In this document: positions 30,749 through 46,007 of the stretch, piece by piece
Layout of the letters: every line of letters begins with the position of its first letter
How positions within the stretch are numbered: position 1 is the stretch's first letter
NCBI GenBank assembly: GCA_029547205.1
Contig: JAKPPT010000151.1
Span: forward strand, 1-46,007
Direction: 5' to 3'
Length of the DNA stretch: 46,007 nt
From: Spirochaetota bacterium
Lineage (GTDB): Bacteria > Spirochaetota > Spirochaetia > Treponematales > UBA12059
Notes under the pieces: generated by a model
Seen by the model: the letters and a program-made list of their open reading frames with translations, nothing else
Database searches by the model: none
Told to the model about the DNA's origin: nothing
Translations under genes and position numbers: made by a program

Positions 30749-31297
30749 ATGAAAGTAGCGATGACAAAAAATTTATTTTTCATTTTATTTTGTATTACAG
30801 CTTGTTTTATTAGTGTAACGAGCTGTGCTGGTAAAATGAACAACCAGAACTCAAACAGTGATGTTGGAATGATAAAACCATACCAGAATAACTGGAGTGT
30901 GAGAATTATACTGAATAATCCAGGAACACGTTCAGAAGGACGGACATTTAGTCTCTATTATAAAAAAGTTCTCATTCCATATGTGTTTGAAACTATCTAT
31001 GCTGGAGGCCAGGGGTTTAGATTTAGAAAAAAGATAAACCTCTGGGATAGCGCTGGATATGTTCCTGCTGATGATGTCATGATAGAACTAGCTCAGGAAA
31101 CTATAACAGCTGCTGAACTATCTCAGGGGTGGTATAACTCATCGGCATGGAAAAAGAATACGCCTCCACACTGGTGTCTCGTTACACGCGATGCTATTAG
31201 CGCTGTTGTTGACCCGCTTAAACTAAAGGATTTTATCTCGCAACATCAATGGAAGGAATACTCATTATATAATATTGAGTTACCTGTGCAGCCTTAA
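30749..31297 (+). CDS. Lipoprotein of unknown function
   Basis: A 182-residue predicted lipoprotein: basic start, long hydrophobic core and lipobox V-T-S-C (Cys26). I do not recognise the mature part, which has short beta-like stretches (SVRIILNNPG, FSLYYKKVLIPYVFETIY) and a Trp-rich second half. The ATG follows the GH57 stop directly with GAGGAAA upstream, so it is co-expressed with the GH57 and DUF4912 genes and could be their envelope partner. Confidence 0.72.
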   Translation: MKVAMTKNLFFILFCITACFISVTSCAGKMNNQNSNSDVGMIKPYQNNWSVRIILNNPGTRSEGRTFSLYYKKVLIPYVFETIYAGGQGFRFRKKINLWDSAGYVPADDVMIELAQETITAAELSQGWYNSSAWKKNTPPHWCLVTRDAISAVVDPLKLKDFISQHQWKEYSLYNIELPVQP

Positions 31298-31535: not shown

Positions 31536-32204
31536 ATGAAAAAAGTGTATTGTATGGTGGGGTTTTTCCTGCTGGTTTCCTGTTCATACAGTAATCAAAA
31601 ACAGCTTGAACAGTATGCAAAAGCGTATGATTCGTACATACATGGCAATTTAGCTGATCCCGTTCTGGAATCATATATACACGATCCCGGCGATTTTGTT
31701 CCTGGTCTCATTCTAAAGGGGAAGGTTTACTTTATAAAAGGAGATTTTTCATCAGCAGAAAAAGCATTTGAAAGAGCATTAGCTTTAAGACCATCTTCAA
31801 TTGAAGGAAAAATATGGTACGCAAGAACATTGTATTATAAAAGTTTTACATATAACGAAAAAAATTTGGAGAAAGTAATAAGTAAAATTCATTCCATTCT
31901 TGTTGATGTTCTCTCTGATAACCCTGATTCTATAAATGCACATGCACTGCTTGCAATGATTGCAAAAGATAAAAAAGAATACGATTTACAAATCGAACAT
32001 CTTACTAGAATTATTCAGTACTCTGATGAGCTTGCATATGCTTTATTGGAACGGGCACGTGCTTTCTGGATTCAAAATAAAATAGAAAGCGCTCAAAAGG
32101 ATTTAACGCTTGCTCTGGCACTTTCACAAAACAACGCAGGCATACAGAGTGCAATAAGAGAAATTCTTTCCAGAATAGAAAAACAGGGGGAAAAGAATGA
32201 ATAA
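31536..32204 (+). CDS. TPR-repeat lipoprotein
   Basis: A 222-residue lipoprotein with lipobox L-V-S-C (Cys16). The mature part is built of tetratricopeptide-like helices: LILKGKVYFIKGDFSSAEKAFERALALRPSS is a clear TPR, followed by weaker repeats around NAHALLAMIAKDKKEYDLQIEHLTRII and ALLERARAFWIQNKIESAQKDLTLALAL. TPR lipoproteins usually organise envelope complexes. It is the first gene of the cassette and overlaps the next by eight bases. Confidence 0.78.
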   Translation: MKKVYCMVGFFLLVSCSYSNQKQLEQYAKAYDSYIHGNLADPVLESYIHDPGDFVPGLILKGKVYFIKGDFSSAEKAFERALALRPSSIEGKIWYARTLYYKSFTYNEKNLEKVISKIHSILVDVLSDNPDSINAHALLAMIAKDKKEYDLQIEHLTRIIQYSDELAYALLERARAFWIQNKIESAQKDLTLALALSQNNAGIQSAIREILSRIEKQGEKNE

Positions 32205-32679
32205 AAAGTTACCTATGCTAATAAGTATTGCCTGTATAATTTGCTCCTGCACAGGAATACCAAATGCTCGTAGTGATTTTACCTGTTCGGAAAAACTCAA
32301 TAAATACTATACGTTTTGTGTTCAAACAGTACACGCTACTGGAGCAAACCTGGATGATTCTTTTCCGGAATATGCAGGAAGAATGTTAGTGATGAGACTC
32401 AGAAAAACGGGGCTAAACGTTATATACAAACAGGAATTATTCCCAACAGATTTTACTTACTATCTTGAGATGAGAGTATATGAACATGAGTTTATGAAAA
32501 ACCTTTCAATAAATTATTCAAGTTACATGGAAGTAAGTATAAAAGATATAACAGGAAAAGAATTGGCAATTGTGTCCTCAAAAGTTGATTCACCTCTAAG
32601 TGCAGCCCATGCTGACTGTCTCAATGCGTTAATTTCAGCATGTGTAAATAGTATAATCAATATGGTGATCAATAAATAG
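32197..32679 (+). CDS. Small lipoprotein of unknown function
   Basis: A 160-residue predicted lipoprotein with lipobox I-C-S-C (Cys18). The mature domain alternates strands and helices (YAGRMLVMRLRKTGLNVIYK, TDFTYYLEMRVYEHEF, YMEVSIKDITGKELAIVSS), a pattern like small periplasmic assembly lipoproteins, but I cannot name a family. It overlaps the TPR gene by eight bases and precedes tolC by nine. Confidence 0.7.
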   Translation: MNKKLPMLISIACIICSCTGIPNARSDFTCSEKLNKYYTFCVQTVHATGANLDDSFPEYAGRMLVMRLRKTGLNVIYKQELFPTDFTYYLEMRVYEHEFMKNLSINYSSYMEVSIKDITGKELAIVSSKVDSPLSAAHADCLNALISACVNSIINMVINK

Positions 32680-32688
32680 TTAGATGTT

Positions 32689-34056
32689 ATGAAATATATC
32701 ATTCTAATTATTTTTTTTATTTTATCGGTATTCTGTATTGCTGAGCCAGTTGTACTTACTGTACAGGAAGCTACGCAGCGGGCTGTACTCTATTCATATG
32801 ATATTCAGGCAGGCTACAGAGATGCTGCTATAACTATGAAAGCGCTTGGGCTAGATATACGGCAATTTTTTCCGGAAATTAATTTTAGTTTTAACAATAA
32901 TGAAAAAATAGAAACAGCTGATATCGATGCAAAAGTAATGACACTGCATATAAATCTTTCACAGCCGCTCTGGGATGGAGGAAGAACGATGCTTGCAATG
33001 CTCAGAAAACAGAGAGAAATAGAACAACTGCTTGATGAGCTTGCAGAAAAAACACTGCATGTTAAAGAAAATGTTATAAAACTGTATTATGATATTTTGA
33101 TTACAAAAAAAGTTTTGCTTGTAAAACAGGAAGCAGTTGCTGTTGGTGAAGAGCAATTAAAGCTATTAGAAGCTGAATTAAAAGCTGGTGTTGCAAAGGA
33201 AATAGATTATAAAAAAGCTCAGTTGCAGGTTAGCTCTCTCAAAATTGATGCAGAAAAAACAGAGCTTGAGCTTAGAGTAAAATATTCAAAGCTTGCCCGT
33301 CTTATTAATGTACATAATGATTTTGTAATTCAGGACATCATAACGAATGCAGTAAAAGGATTATCTGTTAAAGAAAATTATCTATTAGCGCAGGCATTGG
33401 TAAGATCTCCAAAATTGCGCTATCTGGCAAAACAGCAGGATCTATTAATGCGGGAAATTATGTTAAGCAGATTTTCTTTTTTGCCTAGTGTAGCTCTTGT
33501 TGCCAGTTTTGAAACGAGTACTGATACCCTACCATTTTCTGAATATTCCTGGTCGATTGGATTATCGTTTAGTTTTTCAGGAAGTATTTTCAAGGGGAAC
33601 ACATCAGTATTTTATGGGAGAAATTCATCGAATACAGCAGAAATAATTTCACAACGTAGCGATGCACTGCCACTCTCCAACATGGAAGAATTTTTACAAC
33701 ATGAACTATATGAACAAAAGTTAGCACGAATAGTATTCGATATAGAACAGGAAAAAAGAAGCTTAAAAGAAAAATTTGAAGATTTGCTTTTTCTTTACAC
33801 TGCCGCAAAACAGGAACTTGCAATCGCTGAAAAAGACTATGATCTTGCTCTGAAAAACTTGGAACTAACACAGGAAATGAAACGGATTGGTACTGTAACA
33901 AGACTTGATGTTATGACTGCGACATTAGATGTATCACAAAAACATATAGCAGTAATACAGCAGCGAGGACAGCTGATTACTGCGGAAAGAAGTTTAGAGA
34001 GTGCAGCATATCTTGATCCATGGACATTGAGAAATCTATTTAAGGAGGATGAATAG
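32689..34056 (+). CDS. TolC-family outer membrane efflux protein
   Basis: A 455-residue protein with a signal peptide ending near CIAEP. Two OEP repeats are present, each with a long coiled coil; the family marks are SQPLWDGGRTMLAMLRKQREIE in the first half, and KDYDLALKNLELTQEMKRIGTVTRLDVMTATLDVSQ in the second. It should form the outer membrane channel and periplasmic tunnel for the RND permeases downstream. The next gene starts on the last base of its TAG stop. Confidence 0.9.
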   Translation: MKYIILIIFFILSVFCIAEPVVLTVQEATQRAVLYSYDIQAGYRDAAITMKALGLDIRQFFPEINFSFNNNEKIETADIDAKVMTLHINLSQPLWDGGRTMLAMLRKQREIEQLLDELAEKTLHVKENVIKLYYDILITKKVLLVKQEAVAVGEEQLKLLEAELKAGVAKEIDYKKAQLQVSSLKIDAEKTELELRVKYSKLARLINVHNDFVIQDIITNAVKGLSVKENYLLAQALVRSPKLRYLAKQQDLLMREIMLSRFSFLPSVALVASFETSTDTLPFSEYSWSIGLSFSFSGSIFKGNTSVFYGRNSSNTAEIISQRSDALPLSNMEEFLQHELYEQKLARIVFDIEQEKRSLKEKFEDLLFLYTAAKQELAIAEKDYDLALKNLELTQEMKRIGTVTRLDVMTATLDVSQKHIAVIQQRGQLITAERSLESAAYLDPWTLRNLFKEDE

Positions 34057-35402
34057 TGAAAAAAATCTTTTTGTTATCCTGCATTGTTTTGCTATTTTCA
34101 TGCAATGGTAGAAAAGAGACAAATATTCCATCATTTTCTGAAGTGGAATTGGAGCAATGTAAGGATATTGTAATAAATAATACAATAAAAAGTTTTGGCA
34201 CCTTATTGTATGATAAAAAAATTGACATTACTGCTTCTCAGGAGGGTGTTATAGAATATTTTCCCTGGAAAGAAGGTACTGAGCTCAAGGAAAATACAGT
34301 TATTATAAAAATACATAATCCATACATAGAGCTGGCTCTTGAGCGTGCATCACAGAGCATCAGACGGGCTGAAATACATGTAGAAGACGCACAGAATCGA
34401 CTACGGCTTGGAGTACTGGAAGCAGAGGGGCGCATATCGAATTATGAAAAAGCTGGTATGGAATTGGCTCAAGCAGAAAAAGAATATGAAGAAATTGTAA
34501 GAAAAAATACTATAAAAGAAGAACTTTTTGCCGCTGGTGGATTATCTGAAGAAGAGATAAAGGTATCACGTCATGAAAAAGCTTCTGCAGCAGAGAAACT
34601 TGCAATACTCAAAAAAGACTATGAAATTAAAAGTATTGGTTTGCGTGATATCGATATTCAAAATGCAGGTTATGAACTACCTGACACAGCAAATGAACGA
34701 AAAAAAATTCTTATTAATCTATTAACAAAAGAATTAGAGCTTGCACTTAAGCAGGCAGAACAGGCTGTATTAAATGCTCAACTGGAATATAAAACAGCAA
34801 AAGCTGCTTTTGATGAATTAACAATACGTAGCCCATGTAAAGCAATAATAGGTTCTCGTCAAAAAGAAAAAGGTGAGCGAGTCAAATCTGGTGATGTAAT
34901 TCTAACCATTATCAATATCGATGTGCTGTATGCAGTAAGCTCCGTTTCGGAGGAAGATGCCTTACTGTTGCATTCAGGAATGAGTGTTGATGTGTGTGTT
35001 GATTCAGCTTCGCTGACAATCCCGGGGAGAATCGATATTATTGCACCCCTTGCGGACTCAAGAACTGGCTCCTTTGCTATTAAAATTGCGCTTACTCAAT
35101 CGAAAAGCAATGTAAAACCAGGTATGTTTGTCCGGACAATTATATACACGGGGCTTGTAGCAAAGAGAATTTTTGTTAGCGAGTCATCTGTGATTAAGAC
35201 ATCGGATCATGAAGGGTATGTTTTTATACCCGGTGAAAAAACTAAGGATGGTTTGCGAGTTCTTAAAAAAATTGCTGTGAAATTTTCTGAAATTACAAAT
35301 GATGGAATACTAATAAGTAGCGGATTACAGAGCGGTGATTTAATTATAAAAAATCCACAGGAAACATGGAAGGAAGGACAATATGTTGTGGTCAAAAAGT
35401 AA
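34056..35402 (+). CDS. RND efflux membrane fusion protein, lipoprotein type
   Basis: A 448-residue periplasmic adaptor. It starts with GTG overlapping the tolC stop, with AAGGAGG upstream. It has a lipobox L-F-S-C (Cys14), a lipoyl half-domain (SQEGVIEYFPWKEGTELKENTVIIKI), a long helical hairpin (about 90-255), the second lipoyl half (ELTIRSPCKAIIGSRQKEKGERVKSGDVILTI) and a beta-barrel domain (IPGRIDIIAPLADSRTGSFAIKI). It would bridge the permeases and TolC. It overlaps the next gene by 20 bases. Confidence 0.9.
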   Translation: MKKIFLLSCIVLLFSCNGRKETNIPSFSEVELEQCKDIVINNTIKSFGTLLYDKKIDITASQEGVIEYFPWKEGTELKENTVIIKIHNPYIELALERASQSIRRAEIHVEDAQNRLRLGVLEAEGRISNYEKAGMELAQAEKEYEEIVRKNTIKEELFAAGGLSEEEIKVSRHEKASAAEKLAILKKDYEIKSIGLRDIDIQNAGYELPDTANERKKILINLLTKELELALKQAEQAVLNAQLEYKTAKAAFDELTIRSPCKAIIGSRQKEKGERVKSGDVILTIINIDVLYAVSSVSEEDALLLHSGMSVDVCVDSASLTIPGRIDIIAPLADSRTGSFAIKIALTQSKSNVKPGMFVRTIIYTGLVAKRIFVSESSVIKTSDHEGYVFIPGEKTKDGLRVLKKIAVKFSEITNDGILISSGLQSGDLIIKNPQETWKEGQYVVVKK

Positions 35403-36924
35403 AAATTTAACTATTTTACTATGCATTTTATTTCCATTTTTATTTTCATGTGGTATTTTTGATTTCAGACCTGTTATTATTACCACAAGTCTTGATAATG
35501 GAAATACGTTGTTACCAGCGCGGACATCGCCTATCACCATCGTATTCAGCGATGAGCCAGTACATCTCGATGTTGAAAAAGCCCTTGCCATAGAAAACAC
35601 AAAGGGTCCAATAGAAATTGATATTTTCTGGGATGGAAATATCTGCACTATAAAGCCAGCGGAGCCATGGGTTCCTTCGGAACAATATTTTTTTACTCTG
35701 AAGGGCACAATTGCCATGCAGGATGGCAGGAAAACCAAAGCAGCTATCTATAATTCCTTTTTTGCAGTTCGAAATACACGTGCACCATATGTAAAGGAAA
35801 TATATCCTCAAAATGGAGCGATAATCAATACAAGGCCGGAGAGGGTAATACAATTGACATTTTCTGAGCCTATGGATGCTGTGGCTGTCGAACGTGCGCT
35901 TATCTTTGATCCTGTTTTTCCTGCTGTTTTTGAATGGAATAGTGACAATACAGTACTTTTAGTTAAGAGAAAGAATAACGCATTACTATCCCCATGTGCT
36001 CGCTATACATGGAAACTGGATAAAAAAGCCTGCGCTATTGATGGAGCTCCTCTTGAATTGCCACAGATGCAATATTTTTTAACTATGGAGAATGTAGAAC
36101 ATCAGCAGGTTGTAAAAACATTTCCTGCAAACATTGCTGATGGAGCTATACAACTTTTAGACACTTCAAGTTTAACGGATGGATTCCACTATAATTATAG
36201 TATAGTTATTGAATTTAAATATGATATTGATCCTGATAGCCTCCTTGCAAAAAAAATAGTGCTTTTCCCGGGAATAGAGGGTACTGTTGTGCTCATTAAT
36301 CCAAAGCAGCTCTTATTTACACCAGCTACCATTATACCTCCTCAAACAAAATTGATGCTCTATGTTCCATCTACTATTTCAACCACAGATGGACTACCAA
36401 TGCAGCAGGATTATGTTGAATACTTTACCTGTGCAACACCCTGGATGAAGCTTACAGGACTACAGGATCGAATTACAAATCCTGAACATGTATATACCGA
36501 TCCAGATGGAACTGATACTTATATAATAAAAAAAGTGATGGTTACCCAAACGAATCCAGATCCTGACATCACAGGTGCGGGAAATAATATTGTTGAATCA
36601 TATATAGTAATTGTTTTGACCTTTAATGCATCATTTACAACACATGAACAAAAGCTCAAGTTTATTGAGTGTGTTTCGTTTACCAGTCTCAATTCAGGAA
36701 CATTGTCTACTGCATATCGATATGTACTTACCGGAGTTTCCTGGAGTAATAATGATACTACGGTTGCATTAACATACAAGCAGGATATCCTTCAACCTAT
36801 ACCAATTGGAAGTTCTGGAGGAACTGGAAATCTCTATAGGCTTATTATTAAGGGCGGAATTAATGGTATAGAAGCTCAAACATTTCTACGTGATGATATT
36901 GTTTTATATATGGAGGTTCAATAA
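35383..36924 (+). CDS. Lipoprotein with SbsA Ig-like (Big_5) repeats, first copy
   Basis: A 513-residue lipoprotein with lipobox L-F-S-C (Cys23). It contains several Big_5-like Ig repeats, recognised by the pattern I-x-x-T-F-S-E-P-M-D (VIQLTFSEPMDAVAVERALIF) and paired W/Y-x-x-x-KP segments such as GNICTIKPAEPWVPSEQYFFTLKG; a third domain spans about 240-345. The rest (about 350-513) has no obvious motif. Such proteins are extracellular or periplasmic adhesive modules. Its place inside an RND operon is unusual. It overlaps the adaptor gene by 20 bases and the next gene by one (TAATG). Confidence 0.82.
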   Translation: MLWSKSKNLTILLCILFPFLFSCGIFDFRPVIITTSLDNGNTLLPARTSPITIVFSDEPVHLDVEKALAIENTKGPIEIDIFWDGNICTIKPAEPWVPSEQYFFTLKGTIAMQDGRKTKAAIYNSFFAVRNTRAPYVKEIYPQNGAIINTRPERVIQLTFSEPMDAVAVERALIFDPVFPAVFEWNSDNTVLLVKRKNNALLSPCARYTWKLDKKACAIDGAPLELPQMQYFLTMENVEHQQVVKTFPANIADGAIQLLDTSSLTDGFHYNYSIVIEFKYDIDPDSLLAKKIVLFPGIEGTVVLINPKQLLFTPATIIPPQTKLMLYVPSTISTTDGLPMQQDYVEYFTCATPWMKLTGLQDRITNPEHVYTDPDGTDTYIIKKVMVTQTNPDPDITGAGNNIVESYIVIVLTFNASFTTHEQKLKFIECVSFTSLNSGTLSTAYRYVLTGVSWSNNDTTVALTYKQDILQPIPIGSSGGTGNLYRLIIKGGINGIEAQTFLRDDIVLYMEVQ

Positions 36925-38552
36925 TGAAAAATAGTTATATATATTTAAGCTTATTTATTATAATAATGATTCTGGCGAGTTGTAGCATACTGTTTCCTGA
37001 ACCATTTGCAATAAGCGATTGGAAACCAGGTGAAGGGGAAGCCTCACCCGATGCCAGTATCAATATTACGTTTACATCAATTCCTGATAAAGCAAAAACA
37101 GAGAAGGCGTTTTATCTGTTTTGTGATGGTGAGCGTCTTCCTGCACTATTGACCTGGATTGATACAACACTGGAAGTACGTCCCTGTTATCCCTTACAGC
37201 CGGGTCATGAATATGCGGTATTAATAAAAAAGGATGCTGCAAATGTCCGTGGTAAAAATCTTGAAAATGATTTTGTCGGTTTTTTTAGAACAAAAGCAGA
37301 TCGGACGAGGCCATCTGTCCTGGGAACAAATCCTGGTCAGCAATGTGTTGTCGCAGGAGAAACTGCTCCACTGGAAATTCGGTTTTCAAAAGCAATGGAT
37401 GTGCTTTCTGCTGTGGAACACATTACCATACAGCCAGATATACCCGGGTACTGGAACCAGGGTAACACTCCATCGGTTTTAGTTTTTACTCCGCTTGCAC
37501 AGTGGAAACCAGATACTACTTACCACTGCACAATCAAAAAAACAATTAAGGATAGCGAAGGAAATGAAATGGGGTATGAGTACCTGTGGGATTTTAAGAC
37601 AACAGAAGATAGCCTTCCTCCAGTTTTAGTTGCGATTGAAAGAAAAAACAGTAATGGCGTTTCCTTGCTCATGTTTGGAGAAGCAGGACAGAGCACATTT
37701 AATACCGGATGCGGAACAGGAGATAGTTTTATCTTTAAATTCAACAGAGAAGTAAATGTATTTGAAGTTCAAAATTTAATTATGTTTCCTGAGGGAACAA
37801 ACTATCAATGTGTTACAGAAGCACAATGGTCAGATACAATAGAATTTAAGCCTATTAAAAAACCAAAGTGGGGCAGTCAGTATTTTATAACTCTCTATCC
37901 TGGTGTGAGAGATAGAGCTGGTAAAAAAATTCAATGCATGTATCAAACTGCAATCTATGCTAATGGAGCATTTTCAAAACCACCAACATTAAAAGGCATG
38001 CGTATAACAATACAAACAAAAAATAATAGCCTGTTTCCTCCAGTGTTTCCATTGACAACACTATCGTATGTGGTTAGTACAGAAGAACTATTTAAAAAAA
38101 TAAAAATACCAAAAATCGAAGTAATAAATGATGATGGCGATACTGGCGGTGGAGGTATTTTTAATAACCCTCAAAAAACAGGTTCATGTATCATTGAATT
38201 TTACTTTGAAACAGCAGAAGGGGCAGAGTTAAAACCAGGAAGCATTATACCCCGATTTTATTTTGAAAATGCATCAAATTCGCTTGAATTTGCTATTTCT
38301 CAGGTTACACTCACACCACCTCAGACAAATCCTTTTAATCCATTTACTTCATATGCTCCTGTTCCTGAGTGGCAATCGTGTAAAATAATATTTATCTATG
38401 GAACAATCGGTAATACAGGAAAAGCTGGAGTGCTCAAGCTGTACTTTGTTCCTGGAATTGAGGATAGTCTTGGCAATGAAACAACTGAACCTGGAATTAT
38501 AATTGTGACTTACGATGCAGTACCAGACAATAATCAAATAGTATGGGACTAA
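36924..38552 (+). CDS. Lipoprotein with SbsA Ig-like (Big_5) repeats, second copy
   Basis: A 542-residue lipoprotein with lipobox L-A-S-C (Cys20). Three Big_5-like domains can be followed: about 28-127 (ending NDFVGFFRTKAD), about 128-230 (LEIRFSKAMDVLSAVEHITIQP to DFKTTEDS) and about 231-350 (FIFKFNREVNVFEVQNLIMFP). The same layout as its neighbour points to an old duplication, but the sequences have diverged. The start shares one base with the previous stop, and the end overlaps the first permease by ten bases, so both lipoproteins are locked into the permease operon. Confidence 0.82.
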   Translation: MKNSYIYLSLFIIIMILASCSILFPEPFAISDWKPGEGEASPDASINITFTSIPDKAKTEKAFYLFCDGERLPALLTWIDTTLEVRPCYPLQPGHEYAVLIKKDAANVRGKNLENDFVGFFRTKADRTRPSVLGTNPGQQCVVAGETAPLEIRFSKAMDVLSAVEHITIQPDIPGYWNQGNTPSVLVFTPLAQWKPDTTYHCTIKKTIKDSEGNEMGYEYLWDFKTTEDSLPPVLVAIERKNSNGVSLLMFGEAGQSTFNTGCGTGDSFIFKFNREVNVFEVQNLIMFPEGTNYQCVTEAQWSDTIEFKPIKKPKWGSQYFITLYPGVRDRAGKKIQCMYQTAIYANGAFSKPPTLKGMRITIQTKNNSLFPPVFPLTTLSYVVSTEELFKKIKIPKIEVINDDGDTGGGGIFNNPQKTGSCIIEFYFETAEGAELKPGSIIPRFYFENASNSLEFAISQVTLTPPQTNPFNPFTSYAPVPEWQSCKIIFIYGTIGNTGKAGVLKLYFVPGIEDSLGNETTEPGIIIVTYDAVPDNNQIVWD

Positions 38553-41500
38553 TACAGCTTTCGGTGAGGAGACCGGTAAGCGTTTTTGCAATTGTCTGTG
38601 TGATTGTACTTGCAGGAATGCTTGCTGTAACATCAATGCCGCTTACACGGCTTCCTCCTGTTATATTGCCACAGATACTCATAGAAGCAGGCATGCAGGG
38701 AATCCCCGCATCAGAAATCCGCAGTCTTATTGTGCTTCCAATAGAGGAAGCCCTGGCATCACTCAGAGGATTGAGGTCAGTTACCAGTTTAATTCGTGAT
38801 GGTACTGCACTTATCAAGCTTGAGTTTTCCTGGCAGGAGAACATACTGACAGTTCGATCTCGCGTTCGGGAAATACTTGATACCGTATATCCGGTTCTTC
38901 CTCAGGGAGCGCTCCGCCCGAGAATTATTACTGCACCGGATGATGTTCCACTTATAGAGTATGCGGTTATCACTCAGGACAATAACCTCATCGAGACCAG
39001 AAGCATTGCAGAAGAATATTTGCGAAGCGTTCTCCAGAAAGTGAGAGGAGTCAGCCAGATACTTGTTTCGGGTGGCAGAAAACAGGAACTTCAGATAAAC
39101 GTTGATGATAGCAAAGCATTAGTTCGTGGCATGAATATTACTGATATTGCACGAGCCTTTTCAGAGGCACATGCTGATGTACCTTCCGGAGAAATCAGGG
39201 AAGGTGTGCGGGAGCTTGTTGTTTCCGCAAAAGGAAGAGTTCGCTCGATAGATGAAGCTGGTGCAATTATTATCAGCAATGAGCATGGACAGTTTGCCTT
39301 AAAAGAAATTGCTGATATTGTCCTTGCTGAGAAGGAACCGGATAGTATTGTTCTCTATAATGGTAAAGAATGTGTCAGAGTAGCTGTGTACCGACAGAAT
39401 GGGTCTGATCCGGTTTCCGTACACGCATCGGTTACAGATGCAGTTAACAAATTTTTACAAATGCATGAGACTGTTAAAATTATCGAAGTTGGAAATACTG
39501 TAGATGCAGTAAAGGAAAGCCTTACTTCGATTGCTGTTTCCGCTGGTATTGGTGCTGTAGCAGTTATTATCATTTTACTGATTTTGTTTTCTATGCCGGC
39601 AATGGGTTTTATCGCAGCAGTATCCATACCGGTCTCGGTTGCAGGTGGTATTTTAGTTCTTAAACTGGCAGGATGTACACTTAATATACTGAGTATGGGC
39701 GGCATTGCACTGGCAATAGGTATGATAACTGATAATGCAGTTGTGATACTTTCTGCAATTATACAGCAGAAAAAAACGGGTTTTGCTGACATAGCGATAT
39801 CACAGGTAGGAATAGTAAATGCAACAAAAAGCGCTGCAGGAAGTACGTTTGGAAGTACTATTACCACTGTTATAGTATTTTTACCACTTCTGGTTGTACC
39901 GGGTGTGCTTGGTAAATTGTATGGCGACCTTGCACTGGGACTTTCTGGTGCGCTTATGACAGGATGGATTTTTTCAATTACAGCAGTTCCAGCGCTCTGG
40001 TATAGTCTTGTTTCTAAAAAGGTTTTGAATTTAAATAAAACTAATGACAGAAAACAAATAAAGCATAAGCTGGAAACAATGTATGCACGGTATTTAAAAG
40101 TGGTGATGAAAAAGCCATTACGATACGGTTTTGTTTTTTTTATACTATGTTTTGTTGGTATTGGTATTTTCCCTTTTTTGAGAATAGATTTTTTCCCAAA
40201 AGAAAAAAGCTTACGTATGGTAGTTGAAATTGTGCTAGCTCCGCAAACTAAATATGATGTTCTTCTTGAAAAAGCGAAAATAATTTCAAGTGGTTTGCAT
40301 GAACTCACTGAAAATAGAGTGGGTGCATACAGTACCAAACATAATGAAAAAATATTTACAAGCATAAGTTCTCGATCTGGTGCTGAAATTGATGATATGG
40401 AGGCACGAACAAATCCTGCATGGAATTCTTATACAATTATATTTGCATGTACTATCAATAAAAAAATTGATATGCAAAAAGCCTATGCAGTTACCGAAGC
40501 GTATCTTGCAACCGTAGGAGGGATCTCCTATTCGATACATGAACCTGATGATCCTGTAAAAAAGCTCCTTGTATCGCAGTATGCTCAGGGTATAGAGATC
40601 CAGGGAGATAACCCTGACATGACGGAACGGCGTACCAGAGAAATTGTTTCCATGCTAACAAATTGTGGAGTTCCGAACGAAGCTATCGGTATCTATCCGT
40701 CAGAAAAAGCCTGGCAGGCATTATTGTTTCCAGATAGATATAGAATGGCATGGGCAGGCTATTCTTCAAGTAATACTGCGTTTATTTTAAATACTGCGAC
40801 TCAAGGAATCCTTACCGGAACAATAGAACTGGGAGGAAAACTATGCGATATTCGTGTTCAATCAAAAAAAGCATCCACTGGCTTTTCAAAAAACGATATC
40901 GAATCATTTATTTTGATAAAAGAAAATAAAATAATAAAAACATCGCAGCTGGGAAAAATTGAAATACAGCAAAAACCTGCTCTCTATATTCGTTCCAATC
41001 GGTCAGATGTTCAATACATTACACTTAAAAGTAATTTACATAAAGATGTAATGAATAGAGCAATAACGACTATCGCCAGTATTGAAAAAGAACATGCATG
41101 GGTAACAGATCTTGATGCTCACAATAGAAGTGAACTTATCAATACAATGGTCATGCTGCTCCTGTGTGTTGGCATCGTGTTGTACCTTGTGCTTGCAGCT
41201 CAATTTGAGTCTTTTATTTTGCCAATAATTATTCTCTTATCAGTACCATTCGCGCTTGCTGGGGCGGCACCTTTTCTGCTGATTGGTAATTGCGGAATTG
41301 ATACAGGTTCTATTCTGGGCATGGTTGTACTGTTTGGTACAGCGGTCAATAACGCAATTGTACTTTTTGAGATCAGTAAACAAAAATATGAACGTTCCGG
41401 GAATGCTGTTTTTTCAGCATTTAATGGCGCATTAGAACGAATACGAGCAATAACTGGAACAAGTTTAACAACGCTTATTGCTTTAGTACCGTTAATTGTA

Positions 41501-41623
41501 AGCGGTGGCACACAGAAAAGTATGGCACTTGCAGTTCTGGGCGGGCTAACTGTGTCCTCGCTAATTGCGGTTTTTATGTATCCAGTGATTTTTAGAGCAT
41601 TTATAGCAAAGAGGAGTGTATGA
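38543..41623 (+). CDS. RND efflux permease, first subunit
   Basis: A 1026-residue RND protein with the usual two halves, each with one plus five membrane helices and a large periplasmic loop. It opens with IQLSVRRPVSVFAIVCVIVLAG. The proton-relay Asp is present in TM4 (IGMITDNAVV, Asp397), where drug pumps have a DD pair. TM10 reads FGTAVNNAIVLFE, with Asn where AcrB has the essential Lys. It should export a lipid-like or toxic compound with proton motive force through the TolC and adaptor upstream. No Shine-Dalgarno is seen, and its ATG lies inside the preceding lipoprotein gene. Confidence 0.92.
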   Translation: MGLIQLSVRRPVSVFAIVCVIVLAGMLAVTSMPLTRLPPVILPQILIEAGMQGIPASEIRSLIVLPIEEALASLRGLRSVTSLIRDGTALIKLEFSWQENILTVRSRVREILDTVYPVLPQGALRPRIITAPDDVPLIEYAVITQDNNLIETRSIAEEYLRSVLQKVRGVSQILVSGGRKQELQINVDDSKALVRGMNITDIARAFSEAHADVPSGEIREGVRELVVSAKGRVRSIDEAGAIIISNEHGQFALKEIADIVLAEKEPDSIVLYNGKECVRVAVYRQNGSDPVSVHASVTDAVNKFLQMHETVKIIEVGNTVDAVKESLTSIAVSAGIGAVAVIIILLILFSMPAMGFIAAVSIPVSVAGGILVLKLAGCTLNILSMGGIALAIGMITDNAVVILSAIIQQKKTGFADIAISQVGIVNATKSAAGSTFGSTITTVIVFLPLLVVPGVLGKLYGDLALGLSGALMTGWIFSITAVPALWYSLVSKKVLNLNKTNDRKQIKHKLETMYARYLKVVMKKPLRYGFVFFILCFVGIGIFPFLRIDFFPKEKSLRMVVEIVLAPQTKYDVLLEKAKIISSGLHELTENRVGAYSTKHNEKIFTSISSRSGAEIDDMEARTNPAWNSYTIIFACTINKKIDMQKAYAVTEAYLATVGGISYSIHEPDDPVKKLLVSQYAQGIEIQGDNPDMTERRTREIVSMLTNCGVPNEAIGIYPSEKAWQALLFPDRYRMAWAGYSSSNTAFILNTATQGILTGTIELGGKLCDIRVQSKKASTGFSKNDIESFILIKENKIIKTSQLGKIEIQQKPALYIRSNRSDVQYITLKSNLHKDVMNRAITTIASIEKEHAWVTDLDAHNRSELINTMVMLLLCVGIVLYLVLAAQFESFILPIIILLSVPFALAGAAPFLLIGNCGIDTGSILGMVVLFGTAVNNAIVLFEISKQKYERSGNAVFSAFNGALERIRAITGTSLTTLIALVPLIVSGGTQKSMALAVLGGLTVSSLIAVFMYPVIFRAFIAKRSV

Positions 41624-44600
41624 AGCACTGGATAGAAAGAATAGTAAGTGTAACAGCGCTGCTCATTGTAATTACGCTTATTTCTATATTCATAGTTACA
41701 AAAGCACAGTTTAGTACTGGAGAATTAACAAACAATCGTTTAATAGAAGTTACGATAAGGCACTATGGAGTTGACGCACGGGAACTTGAAAGAACAATTG
41801 CAATTCCAGTTGAAAATGCTATTACCGGTATTGAAGGATGTGAGGAAATAATTACATCAATAGAATACAGTACAGTAAGAATATCAATTTTATATGGTGT
41901 AAATCAAAATGATGCTGATATGTATGAAAAATTTAGTGAAGCTGTATACCGGGTTTATGAAACAATGCCAGAATCGGTACAGCGACCAGAATTTGCTCTT
42001 GCCTCGAGTGATGATTTCCCGATTTTTACGGCTGCCATATATCCAGAAAATATCTCCGATGTTTCCTATGTGCTTGAAAAAGAATTAAAACCAGATTTAA
42101 AAAAAATAAATGGTGCTGGCGATGTTGAAATATATGGAATACGAATACCCGAAATTGCAATAGATATAATAGAAGATAAAGTTGCATTAACTCCTCAAAC
42201 GATAATTGGCATTGGTACTGGTATTGCAGAAAATGATATTCTTAAAAGAGCTGGTTACATTACAGAAGGTTCAATTCAAATCCCACTCACAATCGATGGC
42301 AGGTATAAAACGATCAGTGATTTAAAAACTGCGTGGATTTCAGGAATAGATGGCACACCAGTACGTCCTGGTGACTTTGCTGTAATAGCAAAGCAGGAAA
42401 GAAAGCCGGACTCTATTTCAAGAGTAAACGGGAAGCACTGTATGGTGCTTGCTATAAAACGGGCAGGAAATGCGAGCCTCATTGAACTTTCAGCAAGTAT
42501 TAAAGCTGCAATAAAAAAGTGGGAGCAAAAAGGGTTAACCTTTACCATTCTAGCCGATGCTGGAGAAAAAGCCAGGGAATCGCTTTCTGCTATGGTAAAT
42601 TCAGTACTTTCTGGAATGATGCTTGTAGGCTTAGGTGTTTTTTTTATAACACTATATAAGAAAAGTAACCATGTTCTGTTGCTTGCAGTATTAGGAACTG
42701 CTTTTGTTCCGATTGTGATTGTTATTACACTGGCAGTACTTGTACTCTTGAAGTTTTCAATTGATACCTGGGTGCTTGCAGGAATTGTATCGGGGGTTGG
42801 TTGCGCTGTTGATGCGATATTACTATTGCTCGAAGAATCTGCAACAATGAACACGGCAGATGCCGCAGTTATCAGGCTTAAAAAATTGTTTCCACCACTT
42901 GCAGGCGGTGTTTTAACCACGATTATCGCTCTTGCACCGCTTATGGTATATACAGAATTTGGATATGGTATACAGAGAACTGCATGTGCAATTGCTATAG
43001 TAAACCTAATAGCATTGCTTGCAGGCATTCTTTTTATTCCATCATTTTTAGTTGCTATTGCAAATAAAACGATTGAGTATACTTCAGAATGTTATGGGAT
43101 GGGAAAAAGAAAACAGCCATCATGTTTAGAAAAATTAAAAGAGATAAATAATTCATTGAAACATACGTGTAAGAAAATATTGTTTTTTATAGTTACGAGA
43201 CTTATTGTTAATAAAAAAATATTACTCTATGTTGTCATAATCATAGTTGGTACTGCGGTCGTTGCACTTATTTTTATCGAGCGTGATCCTACACTGCCCG
43301 ACTTAGAGGGGACAATTCCCGTTCATGCAGAACTAGCATCGGGAACAGCAATGGACATTGTTGATGAAGTACTTGCCACTGTGAGCGAAAAAATACTCGG
43401 TATTGAAGGTGTTGACTCCGTGCAGAGCACTGCATACCGTGGCTATGGTACTTTGCTTGTTGTGTATGATATGCATCGGTATAAGCGCGATGCAATAATA
43501 CGGGAAATACGATCACTCTCAAATACATCGGTGTTTTTATGGACCGAAATGCACGAGACAAACAAACGAATCTGGCAGGTTTCGATACAGGGTGATGAGA
43601 TTAATCAGTGTGAACTATATGCACGAAAACTTGCCAGTCTCTGCTCTAATCTTTCCTTTGTAAGCGATGTAGTACTCAATTTCAAAGAAGGAGCACCAGA
43701 ACTCATCTATCAGCCTGATAGAGCAAAGATTGCAACATATGGTGAAAGTTTTGTATATCTGGGGGACATCCTACGCTACAGTCTCTACAATCCTGTAGTG
43801 TATAAAAAAATTCAAAACGAACAGGAAATGGATGTTCGTCTTGGAGTATATCGGGCACATGATGCCGAGCGTAGTGATATTTTAGAAACATTAGCTCCAA
43901 ATGGTGAGACTGAGCTCAGGACACTTGGTGTTATTAAAGAAGTTTATGATACCGCAAAAATCTATAGGAATGATAGAAAACGTACAATGACAATATCAAT
44001 TGAAACACCTGTTTTGAGTCCTGCAAAAGTAAGCAAGGCAATACTTGAAACATCCCGTGTGCTGGACATCCCTCAGGGATACAGCGTTCAATTTGATAGA
44101 GATGCGTTGCTAAAAGAATCTAAACTGAAAGAAGGAAGTTATTATTTTATTGCAGCATTTGTCGGCATATTGTTAGTGCTTACGATTCTTGCAAATTCAT
44201 GGAAAGATGCCTGTGTAATAATGCTCGTTATACCGCCTTCACTAGCGGTTCCGGTACTATTCCTGAGCATGTCAGGCTCATCATTAAACCCTGCACTTGT
44301 CTGCTCATTTATAGCTGCTGCGGGTATGGTAGTAAACGCTGGAGTCATCATGCATGAAAGCATTAGCAGTGCTGTCCATACACTCCCTAAAACGTATGCG
44401 AATAAGAATAATGCAGTAAGGAAGTTGTGCTCACTCGCGCTCAAAGAACGCTTCATCACACTGTTTGCTGCTTCACTAACCACCATAGCAGGAACGTTCC
44501 CTATGCTGTTTCTTAAAGGCGAGGTTAACTCGGTATTCCGGTCATTTGCATTTACAAGCGTCTGGGGCGTCGCCTCATCCTGTGTATTTACGATTATGTT

Positions 44601-44673
44601 TTTGCCTATGTTTGCCAACTGCTATACAGGCATAAAAACCAAACATCGAAAGGAGCACGTTATGGATCCATGA
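41620..44673 (+). CDS. RND efflux permease, second subunit
   Basis: A 1017-residue RND protein, clearly diverged from its neighbour. The N-terminus is MKHWIERIVSVTALLIVITL, with less of the usual family opening. TM4 carries GVGCAVDAILLLLEES with one Asp (Asp398) at the same place as in the first permease; TM10 reads AAGMVVNAGVIMHES. Two unlike RND genes in a row resemble heteromeric pumps such as MdtBC, so a mixed trimer is likely. It overlaps the first permease gene by four bases (ATGA) and ends the cassette; no clear terminator follows. Confidence 0.9.
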   Translation: MKHWIERIVSVTALLIVITLISIFIVTKAQFSTGELTNNRLIEVTIRHYGVDARELERTIAIPVENAITGIEGCEEIITSIEYSTVRISILYGVNQNDADMYEKFSEAVYRVYETMPESVQRPEFALASSDDFPIFTAAIYPENISDVSYVLEKELKPDLKKINGAGDVEIYGIRIPEIAIDIIEDKVALTPQTIIGIGTGIAENDILKRAGYITEGSIQIPLTIDGRYKTISDLKTAWISGIDGTPVRPGDFAVIAKQERKPDSISRVNGKHCMVLAIKRAGNASLIELSASIKAAIKKWEQKGLTFTILADAGEKARESLSAMVNSVLSGMMLVGLGVFFITLYKKSNHVLLLAVLGTAFVPIVIVITLAVLVLLKFSIDTWVLAGIVSGVGCAVDAILLLLEESATMNTADAAVIRLKKLFPPLAGGVLTTIIALAPLMVYTEFGYGIQRTACAIAIVNLIALLAGILFIPSFLVAIANKTIEYTSECYGMGKRKQPSCLEKLKEINNSLKHTCKKILFFIVTRLIVNKKILLYVVIIIVGTAVVALIFIERDPTLPDLEGTIPVHAELASGTAMDIVDEVLATVSEKILGIEGVDSVQSTAYRGYGTLLVVYDMHRYKRDAIIREIRSLSNTSVFLWTEMHETNKRIWQVSIQGDEINQCELYARKLASLCSNLSFVSDVVLNFKEGAPELIYQPDRAKIATYGESFVYLGDILRYSLYNPVVYKKIQNEQEMDVRLGVYRAHDAERSDILETLAPNGETELRTLGVIKEVYDTAKIYRNDRKRTMTISIETPVLSPAKVSKAILETSRVLDIPQGYSVQFDRDALLKESKLKEGSYYFIAAFVGILLVLTILANSWKDACVIMLVIPPSLAVPVLFLSMSGSSLNPALVCSFIAAAGMVVNAGVIMHESISSAVHTLPKTYANKNNAVRKLCSLALKERFITLFAASLTTIAGTFPMLFLKGEVNSVFRSFAFTSVWGVASSCVFTIMFLPMFANCYTGIKTKHRKEHVMDP

Positions 44674-44784: not shown

Positions 44785-46007
44785 ATGAAATCGATTAAGA
44801 GACAACTTAAACAAGTACTTGCCCTCATAGTGGCATGGAATTGTGTGTTTGGAAATGTGTTTGCCCAACGAATGCCGCTCAGCTTCAAGCAGAGGCAGGC
44901 AGTGATGACCGTAATCGAACGCATCGATGCGGATAGCACGAGTGCCGATGATTGGCTCAAACGGAGCAAAGAGGGGCTTGCAACAATTCGCACTCTCTGG
45001 GAAAGCGCAGCTATTGATCTTGCCGGCCGGGAACTGTTCCTCGCCGGAGTAGAGGAGGAGTTTGAACGAGCATACGCTATGCGCCTCACCGAAGATTTCT
45101 TTGGCACAGATGCGCAAAAAGATCAGGCTGAGCAACAAAGCCTCATAAGCAAAGGTGTATCAAGTACGAGCGGTGCTCTGTCGAACCGTGAACAGGTTTT
45201 AGCAAGACATCCGGAGCTTGCCCGCTATACTGATAGCGCTCGATCGGCCATGCTGTTCATTACGAAGCGTGATACGACGATCGAAACCGCTTTGGTAATT
45301 GAGCGAGCAGAGCGGATCGCAGGTATGAAAGACGAAGCAGTGCTCAACATGGTAACTGGAGTTGAAAGTCAGGAAGCACGCTCAGCATGGCTTTCAGAAA
45401 CAAGCGCAGCAAGCAGCAAAGAGAGCGAGGCGCTCATAGTAGCCTGTGCTGGAGCCGATCAAAGCATGAAAAAAATTATTGAACAGGGGCTTTCGTATTT
45501 AGTAGAGACCGATGCACTGCTCAGTGATACTGCCCGCAGGATGCTTGAACACCGGGCAGATGACAGCGAAGACCCATCCTTCCGTGCAGGCTACTACCAC
45601 GCTGATCTTGCCCCGGACAGTGCGGCGCTTGCACTCTATGCCCGATTCACAGCAGAGAAATCGAGCTGGATAGAAACAGCAAAAGCTGAGCTTGCGTCCC
45701 CAACTGCTGAACGAGGCCTCCTAGCCGAAGACGCCCGGGTACTTGCCCGTAGCTATCAGAGCATACACGTAGCAGAGCGGAGCATGAGCGAAGTTGTAAA
45801 CGATTACCGCGAGACAGTGAGACTCATGGAGCGAGCATCGGCAGACACAGTGGTTCCCGACGAAACCAGCCCTTTACAACTCACCAAACCTGTGGTAGAA
45901 CAAAATAAAATGGAACAAGTTACAGAAAGTACAAAAAGTAAACAAAAGATACCATTACCGGCAGAACTCATCGTGCTCTACATCGAGCAGCCCAAACCAA
46001 AACGCAA
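44785..46007 (+). CDS. Large exported protein of unknown function, 5' part only
   Basis: The frame stays open from ATG 44785 to the end of the window, giving at least 407 residues with no stop. AAAGGAG lies seven bases upstream. It begins with a signal peptide (MKSIKRQLKQ, hydrophobic core, cleavage near NVFA). The mature part is rich in Ala, Glu, Ser and Arg with few aromatic residues, and looks like long helices or coiled coil (for example ARSAWLSETSAASSKESEAL). Near the end comes a Lys/Gln/Thr-rich linker, suggesting another domain beyond. I do not recognise it. The GC content is far higher than in the RND genes just upstream, so it may have a different origin. Confidence 0.8.
   Translation, partial: MKSIKRQLKQVLALIVAWNCVFGNVFAQRMPLSFKQRQAVMTVIERIDADSTSADDWLKRSKEGLATIRTLWESAAIDLAGRELFLAGVEEEFERAYAMRLTEDFFGTDAQKDQAEQQSLISKGVSSTSGALSNREQVLARHPELARYTDSARSAMLFITKRDTTIETALVIERAERIAGMKDEAVLNMVTGVESQEARSAWLSETSAASSKESEALIVACAGADQSMKKIIEQGLSYLVETDALLSDTARRMLEHRADDSEDPSFRAGYYHADLAPDSAALALYARFTAEKSSWIETAKAELASPTAERGLLAEDARVLARSYQSIHVAERSMSEVVNDYRETVRLMERASADTVVPDETSPLQLTKPVVEQNKMEQVTESTKSKQKIPLPAELIVLYIEQPKPKR

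Follow-up and report, generated by a model that had tools for sequence, protein, structure and literature searches.

An eight-gene cassette located in a stretch of 46,007 nucleotides (hereafter, the window) is probably the dedicated envelope apparatus of a polymorphic toxin system that extends across the spirochaetes. The window is the entire contig 9 (JAKPPT010000151.1, ending at position 46007) of a genome of 2.65 Mb and 151 contigs (GCA_029547205.1), which belongs to a Spirochaetota bacterium of the order Treponematales. The cassette encodes a lipoprotein with tetratricopeptide repeats (TPR), a small lipoprotein, a TolC-type outer-membrane channel, a periplasmic adaptor, two Ig-like Big_5 lipoproteins (Big_5a and Big_5b) and two unlike permeases of the resistance-nodulation-division (RND) type, RND1 and RND2. 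In most relatives, RND2 is directly followed by a gene which encodes a giant protein of about 2,100-5,100 amino acids with a signal-peptide-like start. The toxin system is well supported by comparison of these sequences, and we infer that the giant is exported by the cassette.

Conservation of the cassette and its linkage to giant proteins

The order TPR-TolC-adaptor-Big_5a-Big_5b-RND1-RND2 was repeated in fourteen fetched loci, in three of which the TPR gene was not scored or lay beyond the contig end. As this order recurs across many genera, the arrangement is not due to chance. Big_5a was detected in 21 of 59 relatives, representing 13 of 32 genera, and in 90 genomes of an even sample of the order (294 genomes). 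Among the other fetched neighbourhoods, three were cut by contig ends and one (G009:C1) had no RND genes, and two closely similar loci from one genus showed the Big_5 pair relocated in front of TolC. Of 20 related loci, 8 have an overlap of exactly 20 nt between the adaptor and Big_5a genes. Other classes of Spirochaetota have the same parts, locally rearranged; these distant loci were picked for detailed examination mainly because giant and cassette share a contig, and so they illustrate arrangement rather than frequency. RND1 and RND2 each form a conserved subfamily of their own. The sequence-only reading of the window had taken the Big_5 pair as part of the pump unit, which the recurrent order bears out, and had asked whether the eight-gene order is kept elsewhere: it is conserved across the order and locally rearranged across the phylum. 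Neither of the outcomes named as contrary to that proposal, an order unique to one genome or Big_5 genes usually found elsewhere, occurred.

A scan of 84,980 species, with one genome per species, found 36 giant loci, all of them in spirochaetes. Upstream DNA was available for 28 of these named loci, and RND2 lies directly upstream on the same strand in 16 of them; one further locus has Big_5b directly upstream, and another has the cassette divergently adjacent. In the sample of the order, the giant was present in 92 genomes and both giant and Big_5a in 79 (Fisher p = 4e-45, uncorrected for kinship). Both genes were within 25 kb in 42 of 78 scorable genomes, nearly all the others having them on different contigs. 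Giant open reading frames (ORFs) of at least 2,000 amino acids were found in 69 of 79 genomes with Big_5a versus 2 of 13 without it. Across a phylum sample of 296 genomes, 48 had the giant profile and 75 had Big_5a, with 37 having both (p = 7e-17). Genome G009 has two cassettes (L038, L048): in one, both RND genes are missing and a giant of more than 3,100 amino acids comes next, and the second has the RND pair, with no giant as far as the contig end. A single RND pair might work for both cassettes.

In the window, an ORF with a signal peptide (44785..46005, plus strand) starts 112 nt past the end of RND2, in the slot that the giant occupies in relatives, and runs for 407 amino acids before it is cut by the contig end. 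It reaches 22.1 bits with a profile of the giant N-terminus, over about 120 residues, compared with at most 10.7 bits in 2,000 shuffles. This ORF was not among the matches when profile A8 was run against the whole genome, and the conserved pre-toxin region of the giants was not found in the source assembly by profile A1, by profile A8 or by a motif pattern. From its position and sequence, the ORF probably encodes the beginning of a divergent giant and would thus be the 5' part of a secreted toxin carrier. The sequence-only reading, which did not see a giant because the contig ends inside this gene, had closed the unit at position 44673 and stressed four extra lipoproteins. The small, TPR and Big_5 lipoproteins are indeed regular parts of the cassette; however, the unit does not end at 44673, and a ninth gene had been missed.

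Exchangeable tails, partner genes and orphan modules

Each giant combines a helical stalk with a conserved pre-toxin region and a C-terminal tail that is exchangeable; carrier and tail polymorphism were analyzed in the relatives. The first 600 residues of the giant were predicted as long helices, with a mean predicted local distance difference score (pLDDT) of 71 and a predicted template-modelling score (pTM) of 0.35, values at which only the helical nature of the stalk model is usable. The pre-toxin region can be aligned over about 950 residues and shows an invariant His-Glu pair (alignment A1), found in the context HEAYRD in most giants and HEGTH or HEGDH in some. By its motif, this pair may belong to a metallopeptidase-like processing domain. 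No curated family, TIGR04388 of NCBIfam included, matched the carrier at its cut-off among the Treponema-side giants.

The variable tails, which are the last 220-399 residues, fall into 13 clusters across 38 non-redundant giants, and include L,D-transpeptidase-fold, M15, M23, CHAP-like and C39-like types. Peptidase_M15_4 was over the cut-off in two tails and Peptidase_C39_2 in one tail from another class, while the M23 and CHAP matches were significant or suggestive, yet below the cut-off. The commonest tail type shows an H...SDGC motif and matched the L,D-transpeptidase fold structurally (VIA-align): 24 of the 26 matches listed have this fold, with Z scores of 8.7-5.6, the next one having a Z of 2.1, and the best aligned 121 residues at 3.2 A. 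Foldseek, run with the same tail type before the VIA-align matches, gave no match at E<=0.001. When profiles of the tail groups were compared with PDB sequences, the matches to M23 were weak, the L,D-transpeptidase group obtained a single unrelated chain and the HGHIG group none, therefore the CHAP/NlpC-like label and several papain-like labels are motif readings made by eye. The same applies to all tail-type names other than M15, C39, M23 and L,D-transpeptidase.

Tails are exchanged between close relatives, and the gene that follows goes with the tail type. Two giants from the same genus (G046 and G058) share about 90% identity over 2,600 amino acids and, past a sharp boundary, about 18%. All 24 pairs of related downstream genes belong to giants with related tails, versus 0 of 350 pairs with unrelated tails, a pairing reached by none of 5,000 label permutations. 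A same-strand partner gene is located just downstream of 29 of the 38 giants. By a crude count, each of these 29 partner proteins starts with a hydrophobic stretch near its N-terminus, and a lipobox-like cysteine is present in several; such secreted proteins or lipoproteins are as expected if the toxins act in the periplasm. Furthermore, behind its own tail and partner, G058 carries a detached copy of the G046 tail (348 of 359 residues identical) and of its partner (293 of 321). This orphan module begins within the last pre-toxin motif, and its tail is 97% identical to that of the sister species. Displaced tail and partner arrangements of this kind are known for the orphan modules of contact-dependent growth inhibition (CDI).

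A repeat of about 268 bp, 87% identical to L069 13308-13574, borders the orphan module (L070, 12930-15237 of the reverse complement) and is also present behind it; this is a possible trace of the insertion of a new tail. Shorter ORFs with the pre-toxin profile were seen close to full giants in G031 (C1:1211696-1214704), G073, G168 and G188, and without a full giant in G082; these are candidates for additional orphan tail modules.

TIGR04388 (Lepto_longest) has a weak, distant similarity to the giants of six genomes. Genomes further away, among them G331, G431, G464, G450 and G368, have members over its cut-off, and in the first three of these such genes adjoin cassette genes. The gene of G431 (L191, 7642-13377, minus strand), near those for the adaptor and RND1, encodes a pretoxin HINT domain and a CdiA_C tail, and the G464 protein also has a pretoxin HINT domain. 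A pretoxin HINT domain has previously been noted in LA_3725, a large protein of Leptospira (PMC4751964). Assignment of the Treponema-side giants to TIGR04388 was considered and rejected, those of G046 and G058 falling below the cut-off and three tested giants giving no match at E<=0.01. Our literature search found no paper naming TIGR04388.

Proposed mechanism, alternatives and known systems

In the mechanism that we propose, the giant would reach the periplasm by means of a Sec-type signal peptide and form its long helical stalk there. The two proton-driven RND permeases, probably as a heteromer, would then carry it from the periplasm to the surface together with the adaptor, the TolC-type channel and the Ig-like and TPR lipoproteins, in a way comparable to the RND-fold SecDF, which pulls polypeptides by the proton motive force. 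At the surface, the exchangeable tail, usually of a peptidoglycan-cutting type, would act on neighbouring cells and kill them, and the secreted or lipoprotein partner encoded just downstream would be the immunity protein that neutralizes the matching tail in the periplasm of the producer. The simplest guess for the Ig-like, TPR and small lipoproteins is a periplasmic or surface scaffold. The chances are about even that these components represent a new type of protein secretion, driving giant Sec-exported carriers from periplasm to surface in an antagonism system general to Spirochaetota.

The sequence-only reading had suggested that a larger machine spans the envelope and perhaps passes a hydrophobic or surface product across the wall, or anchors the pump around the periplasmic flagella. 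A machine for a surface product fits the data, but nothing points to a small hydrophobic product. A flagellar anchor was considered as well and found no support. The conserved partner of the cassette is a giant exported protein with polymorphic, mostly peptidoglycan-cutting tails, accompanied by partner genes.

Several observations weigh against a toxin-exporting cassette. Roughly one in three giants of the named loci has no cassette next to it, the giant of G009 follows a cassette without RND genes while the RND pair lies in the second one, and 9 of the 38 giants have no same-strand partner gene. The co-occurrence statistics carry no correction for kinship, and the putative giant of the window is cut short where the contig stops and is only weakly similar to the others. 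To our knowledge, other RND pumps handle small molecules and metals. The pore of a TolC-type channel is narrow relative to a protein of 3,000 residues unless the latter is unfolded.

The cassette could instead be an ordinary heteromeric tripartite efflux pump of the MdtBC type, which exports drugs, metabolites or lipid, is stabilized within the spirochaete envelope by the extra lipoproteins and has the toxin gene only as a frequent neighbour; its gene families are those of drug and metal pumps, heteromeric RND pairs are known (MdtBC, PMC8277102), and the giants located away from the cassette would agree with it. Such a pump is unlikely, given that giant and cassette co-occur across the phylum and are linked in several orientations, that genomes without Big_5a have almost no long giants, and that the TIGR04388 relatives likewise adjoin cassette genes; a lipid or drug exporter found no support beyond these generic families. 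It is improbable, too, that the toxin system is real and the giant surfaces by another route, the cassette helping indirectly through export of a lipid or small molecule for display, or through clearing of misfolded or incoming toxin. This would account for the G009 giant beside a cassette without RND genes and for the giants unlinked to any cassette, and TolC-type pores are narrow; however, an energized two-membrane conduit with both motif Asp residues kept co-occurs with the giant, and the RND pair of G009 is present in its second cassette. The least probable of the three alternatives is that the giant is a structural envelope protein and no weapon, whose tail remodels the wall of the producer, for example to seat a trans-envelope machine. 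Machines of this kind often need a local opening of the wall, most tails are peptidoglycan-type enzymes, and some giants lack a partner gene; nevertheless, a housekeeping enzyme would not be swapped for unrelated folds among close relatives, would leave no orphan tail and partner modules and would not be expected to pair strictly with a tail-specific partner gene, and the relative with a CdiA_C tail behind a pretoxin HINT domain also argues against it.

Polymorphic toxin systems, including CdiA-CT/CdiI of CDI (Zhang et al. 2012, PMC3482391), share with the giants the long conserved carrier, the exchangeable tail, the adjacent partner gene and the orphan modules. In contrast to those surveyed, the carrier described here is in no curated family and its tails are mostly of peptidoglycan type, while nucleases dominate in the survey, whose available text nowhere mentions RND or TolC. 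TIGR04388 resembles the giants in its distant similarity and in adjoining cassette genes, but the Treponema-side giants lie below its cut-off. The two-partner secretion (TPS) of CdiA/CdiB seems to be different: TPS and filamentous-haemagglutinin domains gave no Pfam match at E<=1 in two full-length giants; the search did not extend to a CdiB partner. Type I secretion differs as well, since family scans found no ABC transporter among the eight cassette genes, both permeases being RND proteins. Tlde1a (PMC9638812) is an antibacterial toxin with the L,D-transpeptidase fold and a structural match of the commonest tail type (Z 6.7); unlike the giant tails, it is small, delivered by a type VI secretion system and without a giant carrier.

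Among pumps, the cassette shares the adaptor, the TolC-type channel and two unlike permeases with a conserved motif Asp with heteromeric MdtBC-type systems, and differs from them by two Big_5, one TPR and one small lipoprotein and by the giant gene as a conserved neighbour. BesABC of Borrelia burgdorferi (PMC2279261) is also a tripartite RND system of a spirochaete; it is described as an efflux system of three components that has drug and virulence phenotypes, and Big_5 lipoproteins or a giant are not mentioned in the available text. By analogy, the closest mechanistic precedent would be SecDF (PMC8277102), whose RND fold applies the proton motive force to a polypeptide; the comparison concerns the way of working only, as SecDF is an inner-membrane helper of SecYEG without adaptor or outer-membrane channel. 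Literature searches found no published description of the cassette and giant system, and no report that spirochaetes possess an interbacterial weapon of their own. If the proposed toxin system is correct, a phylum-wide polymorphic toxin family would be tied to RND and TolC proteins, a trafficking route absent from the available text of the main survey. It would also suggest what the Big_5 lipoproteins do, along with the RND genes that the annotations of many spirochaetes label 'efflux', assign the TIGR04388 family to a system, and caution that not every RND operon is a drug pump.

Genes of the window and neighbouring features

The eight genes, all on the plus strand, were verified in the ORF list of the window, and their positions and family matches confirm the composition and the near-touching or overlapping layout reported by the sequence-only reading. 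The junctions are, in order, -8, +9, -1, -20, -1, -10 and -4 nt, which include the overlaps of 20, 1 and 10 bases that it had given around the Big_5 pair. Lipobox-like cysteines were read in the sequences of genes 1, 2, 4, 5 and 6. The TPR-repeat lipoprotein (31536..32204) matches TPR families with E-values down to 3e-10, has a lipobox-like LLVSC, and shows a homologue in the same slot in most relatives. The small lipoprotein (32197..32679; 160 amino acids) has no match in Pfam or NCBIfam scans; its slot holds lipoproteins of 168-193 amino acids in several relatives, whose similarity to the window protein is not significant. The TolC-type channel (32689..34056) matches OEP (5e-35) and type_I_sec_TolC (1.2e-23), and the adaptor, a membrane fusion protein (34056..35402) with a GTG start and a lipobox-like start, matches RND_mfp over the cut-off (7e-39). 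Big_5a (35383..36924) and Big_5b (36924..38552) each match Big_5 in three stretches (7e-19 and 2e-22), and the second adjoins the first in nearly all genomes.

RND1 (38543..41623) and RND2 (41620..44673) match ACR_tran with E-values of 2.6e-131 and 3.6e-76, respectively. The motif residues D397 and N936 of RND1 are kept in 17 of 17 aligned full-length homologues, and D398 and N906 of RND2 in 15 of 15; by motif and position, we take both Asp residues to be the proton-relay residue of AcrB. RND permease, adaptor and outer-membrane channel are thus encoded together, as in a tripartite RND pump. A single further full-length RND permease gene was detected in the source genome (C57). Promoter-like and terminator-like sites in the window were not more frequent than in shuffled sequences.

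Relatives have a conserved gene for a secreted protein or lipoprotein of 329-471 amino acids directly upstream of the TPR gene (L033, L035, L038, L041-L046, L048-L050 and L052). This gene has no detectable counterpart in the window, where the cassette is preceded by an unrelated lipoprotein-like ORF of 182 amino acids (30749-31297). At the other end of the cassette, G002 (L043, L061) shows an additional ORF of 498 amino acids between RND2 and the giant.

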